Shown here one piece after another: positions 1 to 8,184 of a DNA stretch of 8,184 nt (position 1 is the first letter of the stretch; each line of letters begins with the position of its first letter). The translations under genes were made by a program, and so were the position numbers. The stretch comes from Planctomycetota bacterium (lineage in GTDB: Bacteria; Planctomycetota; Phycisphaerae; WQYP01; JAJZKY01), in NCBI GenBank assembly GCA_021803885.1, contig JAJZKY010000176.1, positions 1 through 8,184 on the forward strand. Direction: 5' to 3'. The notes below the pieces were generated by a model, which was given only the letters and a program-made list of their open reading frames with translations, did not search any database and was not told the origin of the DNA.

Positions 1-126
1 TACGCGGCCAGCCTGGTTCGCAGGGGCCAGTCGGTCTCGATGGCCGTTCCCATCGATAAAACAGCCGGCCCGGATAATCCTCGTCCCGCGACTCACCACA
101 TGATCCAGTCCTACGATATCCACTCG
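1..126 (+). repeat. Left arm of a 126-bp perfect inverted repeat
   Basis: Bases 1-126 are identical, base for base, to the reverse complement of 1976-2101; I compared all 126 positions. Identity stops at 127 (G, against the complement of T at 1975). The left limit is only the window edge, so the repeat may be longer. It lies within the 5' half of the cyclase gene. Confidence 0.97.
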
Positions 127-813
127 GCACTCGGCGAGCCCCAATTCAGCACGGATTATCTGGCCAGCGAGTTCCACGGTGACTGCTTTACCCATATCGA
201 CGCACTCTGCCACGTCGCATATAGGGGAAGGCTTTATAACGGAAAGCCAACCAGTGCTGTGACTTCGCGAGGTCCATTGATTCAAGACATCACCGCCTAC
301 GCAAATGGGCTCGTAGGCCGCGGCGTTCTGCTTGACATTCCTCGTTTGCGCGGCGTGAAGTGGCTTGAACCTGGTGAGGCCGTGACTCGCGAGGAACTTG
401 AAGCGGCAGAAAAGGCACAGGGCGTGCGCCTCGGTGAGGGGGACATCTTTCTTTTTCGCACCGGTCATTACCGGCGGCGACTTGAACTGGGTCCATGGAA
501 GAACGGCTACGATGGCGAGGGGAAAGCCGGCCTGCATGTGGAAACCATGCCTCTGCTTCATGAGCGGAAGGTTGCAGCCTTCCTCCCTGAAGGTGACGGC
601 GAAACGGTTCCCAGCAACGTGGATCAAATTCCGTATCCGATTCATGCCCTGCAAATTACCGCGATGGGGATGGCTTGTGCCGACAGCCTGCAATTTGAAG
701 AATTGATCAAAGCCTGCGGAGAGGAAAAGAGGTGGGAATTCATGGTTGTAGCGGTTCCCTTGCGCTTACCCGGAGGAACTGGCTCGCTCTTCAACCCCAT
801 AGCAATCTTATGA
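1..813 (+). CDS. Cyclase family protein (kynurenine formamidase-like), 5' end outside window
   Basis: The reading frame is open from base 1 and ends with TGA at 811-813, giving 270 visible residues. The ATG at 40 is internal: the inverted copy at 1976-2236 shows that 45 more residues precede base 1, so the full protein would be about 315 aa, normal for the family. The metal-binding signature T-H-x-D-x-x-x-H (THIDALCH) lies at visible residues 64-71, about 109-116 of the full protein. Family-typical stretches follow: GDIFLFRTG, then EGDGETVPSN, and GMACADSLQFEEL near the C-terminus. Members are metal-dependent hydrolases acting on amide or lactone-like bonds, such as N-formylkynurenine or cyclic carboxylic compounds; the substrate here is unknown. 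The protein is probably cytoplasmic, with no signal peptide. Bases 1-126 recur inverted at 1976-2101, and the frame across 126/127 matches the family, so this is the intact copy. Confidence 0.85.
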   Translation, partial: YAASLVRRGQSVSMAVPIDKTAGPDNPRPATHHMIQSYDIHSALGEPQFSTDYLASEFHGDCFTHIDALCHVAYRGRLYNGKPTSAVTSRGPLIQDITAYANGLVGRGVLLDIPRLRGVKWLEPGEAVTREELEAAEKAQGVRLGEGDIFLFRTGHYRRRLELGPWKNGYDGEGKAGLHVETMPLLHERKVAAFLPEGDGETVPSNVDQIPYPIHALQITAMGMACADSLQFEELIKACGEEKRWEFMVVAVPLRLPGGTGSLFNPIAIL

Positions 814-887
814 GGCGCAAATCTCTCGGAAGTATATTCTCGCAGTCGCCTGAATCTATCAGAAGCTTTCTTGGCAAGCTTTTGGCT
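814..887. other. Short gap between the cyclase and the GH31 remnant
   Basis: No terminator hairpin with a T-run is visible after the cyclase stop. The stretch may contain further unrecognisable GH31 decay. It is the place where the missing N-terminal and catalytic parts of the GH31 gene would have been lost. Confidence 0.35.
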
Positions 888-1284
888 CGTATCGGTTCGA
901 AATCTACAGATAGTGCTCGATCAGGGTTGCCGCTCCTGATTCGTGCCTGCTCGATTGTTCCACTTGGCCCGGAGATGGAGCACGCAGATCAAAGCCGGAT
1001 GTCCTAATAGACCTGCACATCTACTGCGGTGCAGGCGGTGACTTCGGACTTTTTCAGGAAGAAGGTGGCAGGTGTAAGTACGAGAGCGGTGTGAACTACA
1101 TCACTCCAATTCACTGGAACGACGAAGACGGAACGCAAACACTTGGTGATTGTGCCGGAAGTTCTGCCGGAATACCGCAGCGCTTGAAATTCTGCACAGG
1201 GGATACCCAGCGGAACTTGGTCACTGGAGCCATAAGAATTGGCGGCCATTGTATTTCGATGGGGAGGCAAACAATTTTACTTAG
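888..1284 (+). pseudogene. Remnant of a GH31 family alpha-glycosidase C-terminus (DUF5110-like region), frameshifted
   Basis: There is no intact ORF, but two frames together read like the C-terminal beta domains of GH31 alpha-glucosidases/alpha-xylosidases. Frame 3 (about 891-990) gives GSKST, then PLLIRACSIVPLGPEMEHADQ, the well-known 'PLFVRAGSIVPLGP' segment. It then hits stops near 1005. Dropping back one base around 985-995 opens frame 2, which continues as IDLHIYCGAGGDFGLFQEEG, YESGVNYITPIHWNDEDGTQ and then a GIPQRLKF segment. This matches the usual 'LRIYPGADGDFTLYEDEGD ... YSTIPFHWND' domain. A third frame may supply the end, LYFDGEANNFT with stop TAG at 1282-1284. The N-terminal signal and the (beta/alpha)8 catalytic barrel, about 500-600 residues, are absent. 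It is therefore a decayed remnant left after a large deletion just downstream of the cyclase. Boundaries are approximate, and the family call rests on motif memory. Confidence 0.7.
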
Positions 1285-1491
1285 CCGTTGCTACCGGATA
1301 CACACCCGTCAACGGCCTGCTGACAAAAATTCTGCGCGAATGATCTGGTATGGGCCGTGGATCGCCGTTCCTTCAGGGAGCGATTGCGACCTTTTGCATT
1401 AACCTCTAAGCGTGGCTCCGCCGCTCGTCTGGGACCAGGATCATTCACCGCCTGCTAGATCGGACGCGAATCGCTCTAGTGAGGAAAGATA
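1285..1491. other. Intergenic region upstream of the esterase fragment
   Basis: About 200 bases lie between the GH31 remnant and the next start codon. I see no coding relic, terminator with a T-run or convincing promoter. The only clear element is the purine-rich Shine-Dalgarno sequence GAGGAAAG at 1481-1488, six or so bases before the TTG at 1492. Confidence 0.5.
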
Positions 1492-1975
1492 TTGAAGAGA
1501 CGCGACTTCTTATGCCACTCCGCACGTGCCACGCTCGCCGCCGGACTCGAAAATTGTCTGGGGATCTCGTCCGCACTGGAAAATGCCGTGACTAAGCGGA
1601 GCGCCGCAGTATCTTCATCCGCCAGCGCTGCCGATTCTTGTCTCCCTGGCACGACGCCGCTGACTGCCGAAGGCGATCTCGCAGCACAGATGGTCGAAAG
1701 CATTCATCGCTTCCTGCTGGAGGAAACAGGACGTCAGGCAAGAGAACGGGCGCGGTTGTGGAGTTATGATTACTCCTCACCGCAGAGCTATGAGGAGTCC
1801 GTTGCCCCCAATCGCGAACGCTTTCGCGGGTTCATTGGCGCTACCGACACACGCGTTGCGCCGCAAGCGCTCGAGTTGCTCACCAGGTTTCCGGGTCAGA
1901 GCGAAATCGCGCAGGCATCTGGATACAAGATCTTCGCCATCCGCTGGCATGTATTTCCTTCTGCAACCGCGGATT
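1492..1975 (+). pseudogene. 5' fragment of a Tat-exported acetylxylan esterase / dienelactone-hydrolase-like protein
   Basis: A TTG start at 1492 is preceded at good spacing by GAGGAAAG. The N-terminus KRRDFLCHSARATLAAG is a twin-arginine (Tat) signal. After a low-complexity Ser/Ala linker comes a segment typical of secreted multi-domain alpha/beta-hydrolase esterases of soil bacteria: CLPGTTPLTAEGDLAAQMVE, a helix with RFLLEETGRQARERARLW, SPQSYEESVAPNRERFRGFI and a strand ending in YKIFAIRWHVFP. Such proteins are usually around 700 aa with the catalytic Ser-Asp-His domains further on. Only about 161 native codons are present. At 1975/1976 the frame runs into the antisense of the cyclase gene, adding about 51 unrelated residues before a stop at 2130. 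The catalytic part is missing, so this copy cannot be an active esterase as assembled. The family call is by resemblance; the truncation is seen directly. Confidence 0.6.
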
Positions 1976-2101
1976 CGAGTGGATATCGTAGGACTGGATC
2001 ATGTGGTGAGTCGCGGGACGAGGATTATCCGGGCCGGCTGTTTTATCGATGGGAACGGCCATCGAGACCGACTGGCCCCTGCGAACCAGGCTGGCCGCGT
2101 A
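1976..2101 (-). repeat. Right arm of the 126-bp perfect inverted repeat
   Basis: This is the reverse complement of bases 1-126 with no mismatch. It codes for codons 46-87 of the minus-strand cyclase fragment, from YAASLVRRG to QSYDIHS. Its inner end at 1976 is also where both the plus-strand esterase and the minus-strand cyclase lose their family sequence. That marks 1975/1976 as the novel join. Confidence 0.97.
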
Positions 2102-2236
2102 CCGGATATGCTCCGGTCGGATGTAGTTGAGAGTCCCCCTTTCGTCGTCGGCTCCCCAGCGGCCCCAGTTACAAACCGATTGAAATAACTGCTCGAATTC
2201 TGCGGTTAAAACAGGTTTCGCTGTCGTCTTATTCAT
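1976..2236 (-). pseudogene. 5' fragment (87 codons) of the cyclase family gene, inverted copy
   Basis: The ATG at 2236 opens MNKTTAKPVLTAEFEQLF, followed by the family-typical NWGRWGADDERGTLNYI ('W-G-x-DDE-G-T-L-N'), a hallmark of the N-terminus of cyclase/kynurenine-formamidase-like proteins. Codons 46-87 are the same as the start of the plus-strand cyclase at base 1. After codon 87 the frame leaves the family and reads 31 unrelated residues antisense to the esterase, stopping at 1880. The metal-binding THxDxxxH motif is lost, so this copy is inactive as assembled. A Shine-Dalgarno-like GGGAGGA lies at 2251-2257, 14 bases from the ATG, which is long but usable. A TTG further upstream (2269) would overlap that site and is less likely. 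The fragment lies 95 bp downstream of the permease in the same direction, so it was probably the next gene of that operon. Confidence 0.85.
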
Positions 2237-2331
2237 AATCTTAGTTCGCTTCCTCCCGCCAATAATCAAGCGGGCTTCTGGTGGTTACTTTACGAATGAA
2301 GAACTGCCGGTCATGCGTTCTTCATAGTCGC

Positions 2332-3708
2332 TCATCCGAAGCTGGCCGAATCTGGCAGCTTCAGCGGTTCACGATACCAATTTGTTTGCGCGCCGACAAC
2401 CAGGAGACCTACACCCAACCAAATACTGCCGGCGATCTTTGCCGGGCTAGCGAGTCCCCACCAAATCACCGCGCAGAACAGAAAGCCGAGAAACGGTAAG
2501 ACCACATCAAGGAAGAAATTCTTGGAATGTCCGTTGGGGCGATGTACCCAGAATTGCCAGATCACGGCGACATTTACCCCCATGAAACCAAGAAATGCGC
2601 CAAAGTTCAGAATCTCGGCCGTGAATTCATAACTGAGCAACTGAGCACCTAAGAAAGCCACGAGACCGATCAAGACCACATTGACATCCGGCGTCTTGTG
2701 CACCGGGTGCAGGCGCGCGAAGACACGTCGCGGGAGAACATTTTCGCGCCCCATTCCATACAGCAATCTCGCTGCGCCTACTTGAGAGGTAAACCCCGCA
2801 CCGACATTCGCCAGCACGAGCAGAAGCGCTGTTGCCTCCAGAAGAAGCGTGCCGCCCACGCGGCCGGTCACGTCAATAAATGCGGTATCCAGATCCTTGA
2901 AGGTCCCGTAGTTGGGCCAGACAAGCTGCGCCAGGTAGACCAGCAGCCCGCCAAAGAGTCCTGTAAAGATGCAGACCGCGACAGCGGCAAGAAGCACGTT
3001 CTTGCGGGGGTTCTTCACTTCTTCCGCCAGGGTCGTCACCGCGTCGAAGCCAAGATATGTGAGTGCGGCAAATGAAGTTGCATGCGCGATGCGCCGTACG
3101 CTGAACGTCGCCGGATTGTAAAAGGGCGCTGTGGAAAACAGACCTGCAATGCCCTGTCGAATCCAGATATATCGGATGGCAAGCACAATGAAAGCACCAA
3201 GCACGGCAAACATGACCGCCAGGAGCATTTGATTAGTGCGCGCCGTCGAGCGAATTCCGTTCAGGTTCAGTATCGTGATGCCTCCGGCAAACAAAGCGCT
3301 GCCCACGATAAATGGCAACCACGGAAGCGCCCGCTGCAGAGCAAGGGTCCCGTAAATCACACAGAAGAGGGGGATCACTATGTAGTCGAGCAGCATGGCC
3401 CAGCCGGTTGCAAATCCCAGCAAGGGATGAATCCCGCGGCTGACGTAGGTGTATGCGGAACCAGCTGACGGATAGAGTGAAGCCATTCTTCCATAACTGA
3501 TCGCCGTCAGGACCATCGCGATCATCCCCGCAAGAATGGTTACCACCACATGACCGCGCGCCTCGGCATCGGCAAGTCCGAACACTGTAGCAGGGGCACT
3601 GGGTGTCACAGCTACAACTCCATAGAGGAACAAGTCGCCAAGGGAGAGAACACGAAGAAGATGCGGAGCGGTGGAGTTGACGGATGGTCCCGGGATTCGC
3701 TCGCTCAT
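2332..3708 (-). CDS. APC-family amino acid/polyamine-type permease
   Basis: This is a 458-residue, strongly hydrophobic protein with about 12 likely transmembrane segments, the usual size of APC (amino acid-polyamine-organocation) transporters. Visible family marks are the N-terminal LSLGDLFLYGVVAVTPSAPA with its small-residue unwound TM1, YPSAGSAYTYVSR at 79-91, NLNGIRSTARTN at 148-159 and the conserved loop GFDAVTTLAEEVKNPRKN at 220-237. LYGMGRENVLPR follows at 316-327. The ATG at 3708 is chosen because the family similarity begins there, with AAGGAGAA about 12-14 bases upstream. The frame stays open to 4068, but that extension is not membrane-like or family-like. Such carriers import amino acids, amines or related small acids using ion gradients; the substrate here is not readable. 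It sits between an SDR gene and the cyclase on the same strand, so it may import the compound they handle. Confidence 0.88.
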   Translation of the reverse strand: MSERIPGPSVNSTAPHLLRVLSLGDLFLYGVVAVTPSAPATVFGLADAEARGHVVVTILAGMIAMVLTAISYGRMASLYPSAGSAYTYVSRGIHPLLGFATGWAMLLDYIVIPLFCVIYGTLALQRALPWLPFIVGSALFAGGITILNLNGIRSTARTNQMLLAVMFAVLGAFIVLAIRYIWIRQGIAGLFSTAPFYNPATFSVRRIAHATSFAALTYLGFDAVTTLAEEVKNPRKNVLLAAVAVCIFTGLFGGLLVYLAQLVWPNYGTFKDLDTAFIDVTGRVGGTLLLEATALLLVLANVGAGFTSQVGAARLLYGMGRENVLPRRVFARLHPVHKTPDVNVVLIGLVAFLGAQLLSYEFTAEILNFGAFLGFMGVNVAVIWQFWVHRPNGHSKNFFLDVVLPFLGFLFCAVIWWGLASPAKIAGSIWLGVGLLVVGAQTNWYREPLKLPDSASFG

Positions 3709-3875
3709 AGATGAGAGATATTCTCCTTTCGTTGCCGCCTTCCGGCGGGTCGCGCTTTCCAGCAACGGGTGCACGTGTCCCCCGAATCCCAAGCCGTTGC
3801 TCCAACGTTCTCTGAAATAATGGCAATGCTCTATAAGAGAACCACGAAAGTCTGTTGGAATCCTCCAGATAGGTC

Positions 3876-3894
3876 TTCCTGTCCTATACAGGAA
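3876..3894. promoter_or_regulatory. Operator-like palindrome upstream of the permease
   Basis: The sequence is TTCCTGT, five central bases, then ACAGGAA: a perfect 7-bp inverted repeat about 170 bp before the permease start. It falls just downstream of the minus-strand TTGACA hexamer, where a -10 element would lie. A repressor bound here could block that promoter. No regulator gene is in the window, and binding is inferred from symmetry alone. Confidence 0.3.
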
Positions 3895-3914
3895 CCCTGC
3901 ACCATTCTTGTCAA
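3883..3914 (-). promoter_or_regulatory. Possible sigma70-type promoter for the permease
   Basis: On the minus strand a perfect TTGACA (3914 to 3909) is followed by TGTATAGG. The best -10 choices are TGTATA at 18-base spacing or TATAGG at 20-base spacing. Neither is a strong match, so this is a weak prediction. Its overlap with two palindromes and its position in the only long upstream gap support it somewhat. Confidence 0.25.
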
Positions 3915-3925
3915 ATGCGCGACAA
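3908..3925. promoter_or_regulatory. Second operator-like inverted repeat (TTGTC-N8-GACAA)
   Basis: TTGTC and GACAA face each other across eight bases, and a further GACAAG half-site lies at 3941-3946. The inner TTGTC overlaps the TTGACA hexamer of the possible permease promoter on the other strand. Three similar half-sites within 40 bases are suggestive of a regulator site but are short enough to arise by chance. Confidence 0.22.
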
Positions 3926-4002
3926 ACCTCGGAACAACTCGACAAGAGCAGCGGTATAGACCCGGTAATTACAAGCCCTTTTCCACACGATGACGCTCTC
4001 AC

Positions 4003-4026
4003 TGCAGCGCGGAATTCAGCGCTGCA
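4003..4026 (-). terminator. Stem-loop just after the SDR stop codon; weak terminator or mRNA-end hairpin
   Basis: TGCAGCGC, eight loop bases, then GCGCTGCA: a perfect 8-bp GC-rich stem beginning about 15 bases past the SDR stop at 4041. No run of T follows on the minus strand, so it is not a classical intrinsic terminator. It may protect the 3' end of the upstream message or reduce read-through into the permease. Confidence 0.35.
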
Positions 4027-4040
4027 AATGGCTACCATCG

Positions 4041-4802
4041 TCATACCGCGGTAACACCGCCATCGCACATATACAAGCCGCCTGTACAGTACTTCGACTC
4101 GCCAGAGGCAAGGAAGAGTGCAAGTCCCTCAATATCTTCGCCACTTCCCAGCCTTCCCATCGGAATAGCTGAACGGTATCTCTCGCGTGCCAGGTCGCTC
4201 GCAAAGAGATAATTGTTCATCGGAGTATCCATTGTCCCGGGGATGATGGCATTCACGCGGATATTGTGGCTTGCGTAGGCCGCCGCCATGACGCGCGTTA
4301 AGCTGATGAGCGCGGCCTTGCTCGTGCTGTAAGCGGTTAGCTTTGGAGCGCATCCGAAGAGTCCGGTGCGGGAACACACGTTTACGATGCTTCCACCACC
4401 CTGATTTATCATGTGTGGAATTGTGTGTTTGGCACACAGAAACGGGCCGCGCAAGTTGACATTTAAGACGGCATCCCAAATCTCCAAGCGGAGTTCATGA
4501 GCCGGAAGATCCTGGCCGGCAAGAAGAATTCCGGCATTATTGAACAACACATCGATCCGTCCATAGCGTGCAAGCGTCGCATCAACCAGACATTTGACTG
4601 AATGCTCGTCGGCGATATCTGTCCGCACAAATGTGGCATTCTGGCCCTGATTCTGAAGATGCTCGATCAGGGCAATACCGCCTGTTTCATTCCTATCTGC
4701 CGCCACGACCATTGATCCCTCGCGCGCAAATCGCGCGGCTACGGAAGCTCCCAAACCCGCCGAAGCGCCAGTGACAATCGATACCTTTTTGGAAAGCCTC
4801 AT
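4041..4802 (-). CDS. SDR-family NAD(P)-dependent oxidoreductase (glucose 1-dehydrogenase/FabG-like)
   Basis: The protein has 253 residues, the normal length of a classical short-chain dehydrogenase/reductase. The cofactor motif TGASAGLG is at 11-18 and NNAG at 88-91. Catalytic residues are Asn near 116, Ser144, Tyr158 and Lys162 (AYSTSK); Ser-Tyr spacing is 14, one more than in FabG. IIPGTMDTPM spans 186-195, and the C-terminus TGGLYMCDGG is typical. Asp36 after the second strand (VVAADR) points to NAD(H) rather than NADP(H). It would oxidise or reduce a hydroxyl/keto group on a sugar, polyol or similar compound in the cytoplasm; the exact substrate is unknown. The ATG at 4802 follows GAGGTGG at six bases. 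It begins 64 bp after the secreted glycosidase-like gene on the same strand, so co-transcription is likely. Confidence 0.9.
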   Translation of the reverse strand: MRLSKKVSIVTGASAGLGASVAARFAREGSMVVAADRNETGGIALIEHLQNQGQNATFVRTDIADEHSVKCLVDATLARYGRIDVLFNNAGILLAGQDLPAHELRLEIWDAVLNVNLRGPFLCAKHTIPHMINQGGGSIVNVCSRTGLFGCAPKLTAYSTSKAALISLTRVMAAAYASHNIRVNAIIPGTMDTPMNNYLFASDLARERYRSAIPMGRLGSGEDIEGLALFLASGESKYCTGGLYMCDGGVTAV

Positions 4803-4866
4803 CGAATTCCACCTCGTCGTTCATAAGAAAAAGTGCGATCACCCCGGCTGCGTGCGAAGCGCTTAT

Positions 4867-6429
4867 TCAGTGCGAACCTGAAGACCAGCCATCTGCCTTA
4901 TCAGCCAGAAGCAAAGCCGCGTCTCCCGCGAATGGTGCAGTGAATGTGTGCTTGGATGATCCTGCTGGGATAGGTTGCTCGATCGTTCGCGAGCCCGTCG
5001 TCGGGTTAAGCCATTCTACTGAAAGCAAGCGCGAAGGCGGCGTGGCCGAAAGATCGACGGTAAATGTGCCGCCCACAGGAGCGTAGATAAGGTACTCGGC
5101 TCCGGTTGAAGTTGTATGCGCCAGACAATAGCCCGTGGAACTGAGACTACGGCGCGGAGTCATCTCGACAAGGTTTAACTCGCGGGAGATTCTCAGGATG
5201 GTTCCCAGAGTCTCCCTGAGATTCTCCCAGCGCCCATCCGGAGCGCTGCAAATACCTTCAGTCGGTGAAACACAAAGATTGCGTCCTTCGCGCGGATAGT
5301 AGACAGTATAAGGATCCATGAACAGCAGTTGGTTCCCGGATGTGAAGTTCTCCCAAGCCCAGTTACGACCTTGCTGCAGAGAATCATTCCATATTCCAAA
5401 GTACGAGTGGTCGCTATCATTCACGTTCACCTTGCAGCGAGGTCTTCCCGTGCCGCAGGAAGAGGGAGGCGATACTTTGGCCACCGGAGCAACCCAGTCC
5501 GCATCCGAATCGTAGATGACCGAATCGGGAACACCGATTGGAGCGGCGTAACCAATTGGGTGTACGTGCGGCTTGGTTGACTCGTAAGATCTCAGGTGCG
5601 CGATCAGGTGACGATTCCACCATTTCGATTGCGGCGGAGCTTCTTCTGAAACAATCCACAACACATTTGGCAGATCGTTCAGCGTATCCACCATCTTATC
5701 CGCAAACAAATCCTGATATCGTGTAATCGCGTTCGGCGCGGTCATCGCTACAGCGCCGATTCCACGGTGCCCGCTTTTGTATCCATCGTCGACGCCGTTG
5801 ATATTGTTCGCTCCGGTAAATGGATAACCGTCATCCGCGCACCGGTACAGATTGAGGAACTCGCCGGTGAACAGATACACCCCAGCATAAATTCCCGCCT
5901 GATTCAAAGCTTCAACCCGCGACCGTAGCTGCGAGAAATACTGCGGATTGAACTGATTGAGATCGAACTTCGGCTTTCCATCGGTCGCATTTCCGGGACC
6001 TGTTCTCTTCCACGGGAAGGGACTTACCGTAAATTGGGGCGGGTTTTCCGCGACGACGGGAAGGTTGCAGAACTTTGGAGTTTCGATCGTCCATAACAAG
6101 GTGAAGTTATGGCCGTGATCCTTGAGAAACTTCACGAACCGCGCAAAATTGAATGGCTGCGACGAGTTGTCCGTACCCCAATCCTGCAATGAATTCCATG
6201 TCTGGGAACCAACCAAAAGGATTGCATGGCCTTTCGCATCCTGAAAATAGCGATGATTTCTGGATCGGGTGAGCACACCGGTAATTGGCGGATTCGATGC
6301 CGCGCTGCTTTGCGCATTCGATCGATTGCTGGAGATGAAGCACGCTATGAGGAACGCAATTACCGTCCATCTTGCGAAGTCGCGCAATAATTGAGCGGAA
6401 CCCGGACGACGGACTGATCTCTCTCTCAT
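4867..6429 (-). CDS. Secreted apiosidase-like (DUF4038-type) protein with C-terminal 'collagen-binding-like' domain
   Basis: The ATG at 6429 is chosen over a GTG at 6435 because GGAGG lies about nine bases before it but only three before the GTG. The 520-aa protein starts with a basic n-region, a hydrophobic stretch WTVIAFLIACFI (21-32) and a probable Sec cleavage near NAQ-SS (38-42), so it is exported. The mature start RYFQDAKGHAILLVGSQTWN (60-79) resembles DUF4038/apiosidase-like TIM barrels ('YF-D--G-PFLLVGDTAW'). NVLWIVSEEAP (255-265) sits where clan-A-type glycosidases carry the acid/base Glu, probably E262 or E263. The tail GAEYLIYAPVGGTFTVDLSA (443-462) through EWLNPTTGS to about 510 matches the small beta domain named 'putative collagen-binding domain of a collagenase' that often follows DUF4038. 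It probably cleaves a glycan outside the cytoplasm; apiose is one known substrate in the broad group but is not shown here. Confidence 0.7.
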   Translation of the reverse strand: MRERSVRRPGSAQLLRDFARWTVIAFLIACFISSNRSNAQSSAASNPPITGVLTRSRNHRYFQDAKGHAILLVGSQTWNSLQDWGTDNSSQPFNFARFVKFLKDHGHNFTLLWTIETPKFCNLPVVAENPPQFTVSPFPWKRTGPGNATDGKPKFDLNQFNPQYFSQLRSRVEALNQAGIYAGVYLFTGEFLNLYRCADDGYPFTGANNINGVDDGYKSGHRGIGAVAMTAPNAITRYQDLFADKMVDTLNDLPNVLWIVSEEAPPQSKWWNRHLIAHLRSYESTKPHVHPIGYAAPIGVPDSVIYDSDADWVAPVAKVSPPSSCGTGRPRCKVNVNDSDHSYFGIWNDSLQQGRNWAWENFTSGNQLLFMDPYTVYYPREGRNLCVSPTEGICSAPDGRWENLRETLGTILRISRELNLVEMTPRRSLSSTGYCLAHTTSTGAEYLIYAPVGGTFTVDLSATPPSRLLSVEWLNPTTGSRTIEQPIPAGSSKHTFTAPFAGDAALLLADKADGWSSGSH

Positions 6430-6561
6430 TTCCACGTTCCTCCGTTGTGAAGCTATTCGACTGCCATAGGGCGTCTCTGTTTGATAAGTGACAAAGAAGC
6501 ACGATTGGGACGAAATGGAGCTAAGATCAAGATTGGCAAAATGGCATTCCGTCTGCGCTGT

Positions 6562-7317
6562 TCACCCGCGGCCAATGTAAGGCATCTTCGTCGCGATTAC
6601 CGTCATGAACTGAACATTCGCATCGAGAGGCAGACTTGCCATGAAGGCGACTGCGCGTCCGACCTCGGCAGGATCGATGGTCGGCTCGACAGCGATGGCG
6701 CCATTCGGCTGCAACAGCCCCTGCTTCGCCCTCTCCATAGGCTCGGTAGCTGCGTTGCCAATATCAATCTGTCCGCAGGCGATATCATAAGCTCTTCCGT
6801 CGAGCGAGGTTGCCTTGGTCAGGCCGGTGATTCCATGCTTTGAAGCCGTGTACGCGGCCGATCCGGGCCGGGGGACGTGCGCCGAAATTGAGCCGTTATT
6901 GATAATGCGTCCACCGCGTGGGTTCTGTTCCTTCATCATCCTGAAAGCTTCTTGCGTACAAAGAAATGCTCCGGTCAGATTCGTCGCCAGCAACATATTC
7001 CATTGCTCCAGCGGAAGATTCTCTATCGATGTGCCGGTCACAGAGACGCCTGCGTTGTTGAAGAGGAGATCTAGCCGGCCAAAAGCCTCGCGAACAGCGT
7101 TGAAAAGCGCTCTGACGGAAGACGGATCCCTCACATCGGCCGGAACAGCCAGATGCTGCTTGTCTGGCGATTGCAAGCTAATCTCTTCTTGCACTTTGAG
7201 CAGGCGTTCAGAGTTTCGCCCCGCCAGAACAATCGCATAGCCTCCTTCCGCCAGGGCGAGAGCTGCCGCCTTTCCTATGCCGCTTCCTGCACCTGTCACA
7301 ATCGCAACCTTGGTCAT
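6562..7317 (-). CDS. SDR-family NADP-type oxidoreductase
   Basis: The protein has 251 residues. TGAGSGIG is at 8-15, NNAG at 87-90, Ser143 and Tyr156-x3-Lys160 (AYTASK) form the catalytic set, and Asn113 completes it. Arg34 in LAGRN after the second strand suggests NADP(H) preference. The segment [15 protein letters not shown] (180-194) and the C-terminal TKMPYIGRG mark a distinct SDR subgroup lacking the usual 'PG--xT' motif; I recognise the pattern but not a proven substrate. The ATG at 7317 is preceded by GAGGTG at six bases. An upstream in-frame start (7362) would include an unconserved leader and is rejected. It lies between the isomerase gene (118 bp upstream) and the secreted protein gene (132 bp downstream) on the same strand. 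It differs from the other SDR in cofactor signature, so the two may act at different redox steps of one pathway. Confidence 0.9.
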
Positions 7318-7435
7318 CAAACACACCTCGCACATGCCCTGGATGGCCTGCGAAGCGTGCACCGCAGATCCAACTCTCTGACACTACCACCAATAGGAGG
7401 TTCATCGCACTATTTGCGGATGAGGCTGATTTGAC

Positions 7436-8184
7436 TCACGCAGGATGAGCCGGGTCCAGTCCCTCCCCCAAATATTCGCGACGGCAGTGCATTACAGTGC
7501 TGGTGATATTCGTCTGTACCGCTTCATCCGCCAATTCAAAGGGATAAATGATCTCGATAAACGCCGGCAGATGAGCCAGACCGGCTGTGCGCACTTCGCT
7601 CGCAAAGCCGGAGACATCAAACAAGCCGCGCCGATCGGGCCAGCCCCAGTGCGAGTCGCTTTGAAAGTCGGTGTTTTGCAGGTGGAAGGCGCCGATCGAA
7701 TCTCCGAGTCCGTTGAGCCACTCAGGCATCGTTGCGCCCGGTCCATATAACGGCTGGTACAAGGCATGACCGATATCGATCAGAAGCTTCACAGGAACTT
7801 CACACCGCCCCTCAAGGTCCTTCATGAACGCCGTTGCCTGATTGACTGTATAGGGAATCTCGCGCCCCAGCGGTGTGCATTCAACTTGAATCCGTTCTAA
7901 TCCGGCGGCTCGCGCCGACTTCGATAGCTCGGCTACCGCATCCAGCAAGCAGCGGTAGCGCTGCTCGCGGCTTTTGGGATCGGAAGCATCTCTCACGCTC
8001 ATGCCGCCCAGCGGCCCGCCTGAAGACTTTGCTCCAACCTCTGCAGCTACATCGAAGGCCCGCTTCCACCACTCCATCGACGCGCTTCTGCCGGCACTGT
8101 CCGGATGCAGCAGGCCATCAAAACAGTAGTTGGCAAGACCGCTGAAAGCGCTTTCGATTTGTAATCCCCAGTCATTTGCAGCCT
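7436..8184 (-). CDS. Sugar phosphate isomerase/epimerase-like TIM-barrel protein, 5' end outside window
   Basis: The frame is open to the window edge: 248 residues are visible, and 35 of them lie upstream of the first in-frame ATG at 8077 and still look family-like (SGLANYCFDGLLHPD). The true start is therefore beyond 8184. The protein resembles xylose-isomerase-like TIM barrels (AP endonuclease 2 superfamily). Likely divalent-metal ligands sit at the strand ends: Glu in IQVECTPLG, Asp and His in LLIDIGHA, His in FHLQNTDFQSDSHWGWPD, and Glu in FIEIIYPFE. The HLQNTD...DSHWGWP segment recalls erythrulose/tetrulose-phosphate isomerases and epimerases, suggesting a ketose or ketose-phosphate substrate; this is inference. 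It is the first visible gene of the minus-strand run, followed by an SDR, which is typical of sugar and polyol catabolic operons. No signal peptide can be judged. Confidence 0.8.
   Translation of the reverse strand, partial: AANDWGLQIESAFSGLANYCFDGLLHPDSAGRSASMEWWKRAFDVAAEVGAKSSGGPLGGMSVRDASDPKSREQRYRCLLDAVAELSKSARAAGLERIQVECTPLGREIPYTVNQATAFMKDLEGRCEVPVKLLIDIGHALYQPLYGPGATMPEWLNGLGDSIGAFHLQNTDFQSDSHWGWPDRRGLFDVSGFASEVRTAGLAHLPAFIEIIYPFELADEAVQTNITSTVMHCRREYLGEGLDPAHPA

Follow-up and report, generated by a model that had tools for sequence, protein, structure and literature searches.

The perfect inverted repeat in the window (the whole stretch of 8,184 nucleotides analyzed here) is probably an ordinary artefact. 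With a probability of roughly 0.73, it marks a single spurious inverted join within a bacterial contig, made by a template switch in a library molecule and given its 126-nt terminal repeat by the assembler; the repeat appears to owe its length to the assembly software rather than to biology. The window is collinear with the contigs of a close relative and holds a single inverted junction with 8 nt of microhomology, and the length of its arms coincides with the usual contig-end overlap in that relative's assembly. Of the two origins named by the initial annotation, an inverted duplication or an amplification/assembly chimera, the evidence favors the chimera, with only a small share of the probability left to a real duplication.

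The inverted repeat and the gene order around it

Repeat search and a re-check by script both confirmed that bases 1-126 and 1976-2101 are exact reverse complements of each other (126/126 positions, 100% complementary), with 1849 nt between the arms, as originally described. The repeat is cut at window base 1, the outer end of the left arm, and on the inner side the arms diverge at once (127 is G, whereas the complement of 1975 is A). An exact match of this length is far beyond chance, and no other inverted repeat of at least 20 nt was reported in the window (seed 12). The earlier argument that zero divergence means a recent or artificial origin is fair, but it is weak over only 126 nt.

On the plus strand a PF04199 cyclase enters from base 1 and is followed by a poorly coding stretch and then by an ORF from 1492, while the minus strand carries, from ~2236 rightward, the cyclase start, an amino-acid permease, a short-chain dehydrogenase/reductase (SDR), an apiosidase-like protein, a second SDR and a TIM-barrel protein. 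The genes proposed for the two copies held up: the left copy (1-126, plus strand), which holds the cyclase codons preceding the junction, runs into the cyclase (PF04199, E 2.2e-17), the rest of which is kynurenine-formamidase-like and occupies 127-813 on the plus strand, and the right copy can be traced back over the beginning of the cyclase to the permease (PF13520). The right arm and the remaining cyclase N-terminus together span 1976-2236 on the minus strand, as delimited by the inverted repeat, the ORF and blastn comparison. Joined by script, the cyclase remainder and this N-terminus contained no internal stop and matched a 317-aa cyclase of the relative described below; the cyclase is whole once both halves are read together. 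A protein search with the window's cyclase piece returned 7240 proteins among 8000 scored candidates, and the best homologue among the 120 matches listed was a 317-aa protein with 95% identity. The window's own 5'-cut cyclase was not among these 120 matches listed, which has no bearing on whether the contig ends there.

A cyclase scan of genome contigs gave 8 loci, the best of which, L001, is a contig of the Acidobacteria MAG SKS5.bin94 (genome G001), with 94% amino acid identity in the cyclase. This was the closest genome found, at 88-89% nucleotide identity to the window. L001 carries on one strand the end of the permease, the 317-aa cyclase and an intact 803-aa esterase. By blastn, window 1-1027 aligns to L001 1042-2070 (88%), window 1389-1983 to L001 2062-2656 (89%) and window 1976-3142 to L001 1167-1 on the minus strand (89%), so that both arms of the window fall on one single place in L001. 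Farther right, window 3007-8184 is collinear with contig C120 of the same genome, save for ~90 nt (6468-6559) without a match. The permease (2332-3708, minus strand; ORF and Pfam evidence, with the start at 3708 picked by eye) is therefore the ordinary upstream neighbor of the cyclase, and the SDR, apiosidase-like glycosidase, SDR and TIM-barrel genes at 4041-8184 on the minus strand (Pfam; 3007-6467 and 6560-8184 collinear) are ordinary chromosome. Judged from these alignments, the window minus 1028-1388 and 6468-6559 fits one ordinary chromosome with the order permease, cyclase, esterase, and the best explanation includes an Acidobacteria-like source bacterium whose chromosome is ordinary at this locus.

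The apiosidase-like protein at 4867-6435, between the two SDR genes, looks secreted (by eye); its PF13204 match lies just below the cut-off and its PF12904 match above it. Between the cyclase and the esterase, 361 nt (1028-1388, plus strand) do not align to L001 according to the blastn break points. Within 1007-1400, from ~1007, there is what appears to be a decayed GH31-type C-terminal (DUF5110) remnant (PF17137, E 1e-4, 22.7 bits, below the 27-bit cut-off); segment 1005-1400 found no match in genomes G001-G003, where an empty answer is uninformative.

Perfect 126-nt inverted arms could also be the ends of an element or belong to an invertible switch. Such a functional repeat or mobile element is extremely improbable and was rejected, because the arms are part of the cyclase coding region and no recombinase or transposase family was found among the Pfam matches of the 10 ORFs scanned (out of 29 listed for the window). 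The single L001 location of both arms likewise counts against it.

The junction inside the esterase

Only one abnormal adjacency was seen in the window, at 1976-1983. In column-by-column registers against L001, the esterase can be followed up to 1983 and the cyclase antisense from 1976, leaving eight common columns, CGAGTGGA, as a microhomology shared by esterase sense and cyclase antisense. At this point the esterase gene, present here as a 5' part on the plus strand (1492-1983) and intact in L001, where its protein matches PF01738 and other families, breaks off, and the sequence returns to the cyclase in inverted orientation. The joined segments lie 1849 nt apart in the window and about 1.5 kb apart in L001. 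Microhomology of at least 8 nt occurs at 142 of the 663,584 position pairs of the two sequences (2.1e-4), a count that used L001 for the string beyond 1983 and scored every longer match at several positions. This rarity makes a random blunt join unlikely and suggests that the join was probably guided by base pairing.

Short complementarity of this kind is a published property of chimeras formed during multiple displacement amplification (MDA). In the study of Lasken and Stockwell (2007; PMC1855051), 406 of 475 chimeras were inverted, 337 of those 406 joined segments <10 kb apart, and inverted chimeras within that distance showed complementarity of at least 2 nt (up to 21) in 93.5% of cases; according to a 2026 paper (PMC13265396), palindromic reads often exceed one third of mitochondrial reads after MDA. 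The window likewise joins two nearby genomic segments, the second one inverted and <10 kb away, with 8 nt of complementarity at the switch point, inside the 2-21 nt range of the 2007 study, and a displaced 3' end copying the nearby opposite strand, as described there, would account for such a join; unlike those chimeras, the window's junction is known from a contig and not from a read. By analogy, then, the inverted orientation, short complementarity and spacing match the published MDA-type signature, and template switching in library steps other than MDA would look alike.

The same junction could have arisen in the living cell, where a fork or broken end that switched strands at the 8-nt inverted repeat would leave an esterase-truncating inverted duplication of the tandem-inversion-duplication or snap-back type. 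Strand-switch models accommodate a complementary junction of 8 nt between sites 1.85 kb apart equally well, and the equal short complementarity expected of in vivo template switching is a point against the chimera. Bacterial tandem inversion duplications are likewise inverted copies formed in vivo with a junction at a short inverted repeat. The window also resembles yeast ODIRA, as presented in PMC4689423, in having an inverted copy and a junction at a short inverted repeat, but differs from it in lacking any sign of copy gain, a second junction or recurrence. We consider this in vivo origin unlikely. One reason lies in the selective constraint on the genes involved: relative to L001, dN/dS was 0.06 for the 3' part of the cyclase, 0.11 for its N-terminal part, 0.07 for the permease (270 codons) and 0.30 for the esterase part. 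With its open frame and mild constraint, the esterase part has probably been truncated either very recently or not at all.

The search for the junction elsewhere also speaks against an event in the cell. The two ORFs fused across it, 1492-2130 (plus strand) and 1880-2269 (minus strand), matched no Pfam family at E 0.1 and had 36 and 16 homologues in the protein collection, with best identities of 77% and 61%, and hence no close relative there; this lack of relatives carries little weight, as gene callers may skip such ORFs. Six of these 52 homologues were read, and the best-covering one of each ORF was aligned: the P0158 alignment stops five residues beyond the junction, and P0140, an ordinary cyclase, runs on beyond it. 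In a set of 99 genomes made up of G001 and 98 relatives, with three candidates per genome scored, no single match crossed the junction; 8 of the 99 gave any match, and in the cyclase-bearing genomes G001, G023 and G033 the cyclase halves are collinear. The junction 30-mer had 0 matches in viral_contigs, a collection in which a junction of chromosomal origin would hardly be expected, and megablast of the window against plasmids gave no match. Within the scope of these searches the junction neither recurs in nor is inherited by relatives, as would also be the case for a very young event.

Contig-end overlaps and the length of the arms

The length of the arms was compared with exact matches at the contig ends of G001. 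We compared 120 contigs (1,472,509 bases; those >20 kb represented by their first 20 kb), searching 206 contig ends (120 left, 85 right and one from contig C312) against these 120 contigs and part of C312 with an exact seed of 30 nt. Fifteen exact matches resulted: 12 to other contigs, 2 terminal self-inverted matches (99 nt and 93 nt, none of 126 nt) and 1 self-direct match (49 nt). The matches to other contigs, counted from 30 nt upward, were exactly 126 nt long in 10 of 12 cases, the other two being 45 and 32 nt. The 126-nt match between C312 and C120 was known beforehand and had been the reason for this comparison; leaving it out gives 9 of 11.

An exact match that covers the terminal 126 nt and breaks off at base 127 is the fingerprint of the G001 assembly graph. 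The title of the L001 record has the NODE_length_cov form, which we take to be SPAdes style, and the overlap in this graph is presumably k-1, which would point to a k=127 graph whose contigs overlap by one base less. The window's left arm behaves as these de Bruijn overlaps do, running 126 nt from the first base and then diverging, from which we infer that base 1 is a contig end, that bases 1-126 are its overlap with the rest of the graph, and that the length of the arm carries no biological information. The window arm has the same length as 10 of the 12 overlaps in G001, which is a separate assembly, and the argument is weakened by this foreign origin of the fingerprint and by the partners involved, since all ten G001 cases join another contig, whereas the window's partner is the same contig, inverted; neither of the two self-inverted ends in G001 has this length, which also counts against the argument. 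As an assembler constant of the related assembly, the arm length also counts against an in vivo event.

Two exact inverted copies of a contig's own interior, ~7-8 kb off, were seen in the same genome, at L032 1-99/7797-7895 and L044 3750-3842/10842-10934. These terminal repeats are possibly fold-back chimeras or repeats; we did not count them as parallel chimeras, and the L032 arm reads like a transposase fragment (by eye). L032 additionally ends in a CRISPR-like array at ~10530-11528, with a repeat of about GTTTCAATCCACGCGCCCCGCGTGGGGCGCGAC and a period of ~65 nt (by eye).

Contig ends could also enter the picture through a pure assembly or scaffolding mis-join, in which neighboring contigs overlapping by 126 nt within the cyclase had their wrong ends connected through a chance 8-nt overlap. 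Both arm edges would then be contig ends, with 126 nt the usual overlap in the related assembly, and that assembly may hold scaffolding, as L028 contains one N run of exactly 10 (although the run may instead be masked sequence). The window, on the other hand, contains no N, and an 8-nt match is rare by chance. Furthermore, a scaffolder normally needs read pairs for an inverted link, and such pairs themselves need chimeric molecules. We regard a mis-join without chimeric molecules as quite improbable.

A probable fold-back chimera and its consequences

Under the favored template switch in vitro, a growing strand in a library molecule would have copied the permease, the cyclase and the start of the esterase and then changed template within the esterase. 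With its 3' end (...CGAGTGGA) annealed to the complementary TCCACTCG in a sense-strand cyclase copy, about 1.85 kb upstream, the strand would have gone on copying in reverse, past the start of the cyclase and into the permease. A de Bruijn assembler walking this chimeric path would stop where the loop re-enters a cyclase k-mer already used, which would leave a terminal repeat of k-1, or 126 nt. The resulting contig may be pictured as a lollipop whose stem is the permease side with the cyclase start, and whose loop of cyclase, spacer and esterase start is closed by the fold-back junction; one kind of chimeric molecule would suffice for the whole contig.

Since contig ends of the related assembly usually overlap by 126 nt and only one adjacency is abnormal, nothing observed needs long duplicated arms, and the arm-loop-arm structure of the initial annotation is superfluous. 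Its accompanying prediction, that the left flank reverse-complements the sequence from 2102 on, does not separate the readings: the relative has the permease immediately upstream of the cyclase and in the same orientation, so an ordinary chromosome makes this prediction too. What tells against a chimera is that the assembler preferred the junction path, crossing it without breaking at the normal esterase continuation, so that the normal path did not exceed the chimeric one in coverage at that point; a real event would lead to an identical graph and contig. In detail, that event would be a very recent fold-back in an uncultured acidobacterium in which the permease/cyclase side was duplicated in inverted orientation and the esterase broken, a scenario to which we give little credence. 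If true, it would capture a moment of inverted amplification in a bacterium in nature.

The finding is mainly a warning. An exact inverted repeat of k-1 length at a contig end, when combined with a microhomology junction that interrupts a gene, is a recognizable fingerprint of fold-back chimeras, and such chimeras can make genome scans report spurious fused ORFs and inverted duplications.
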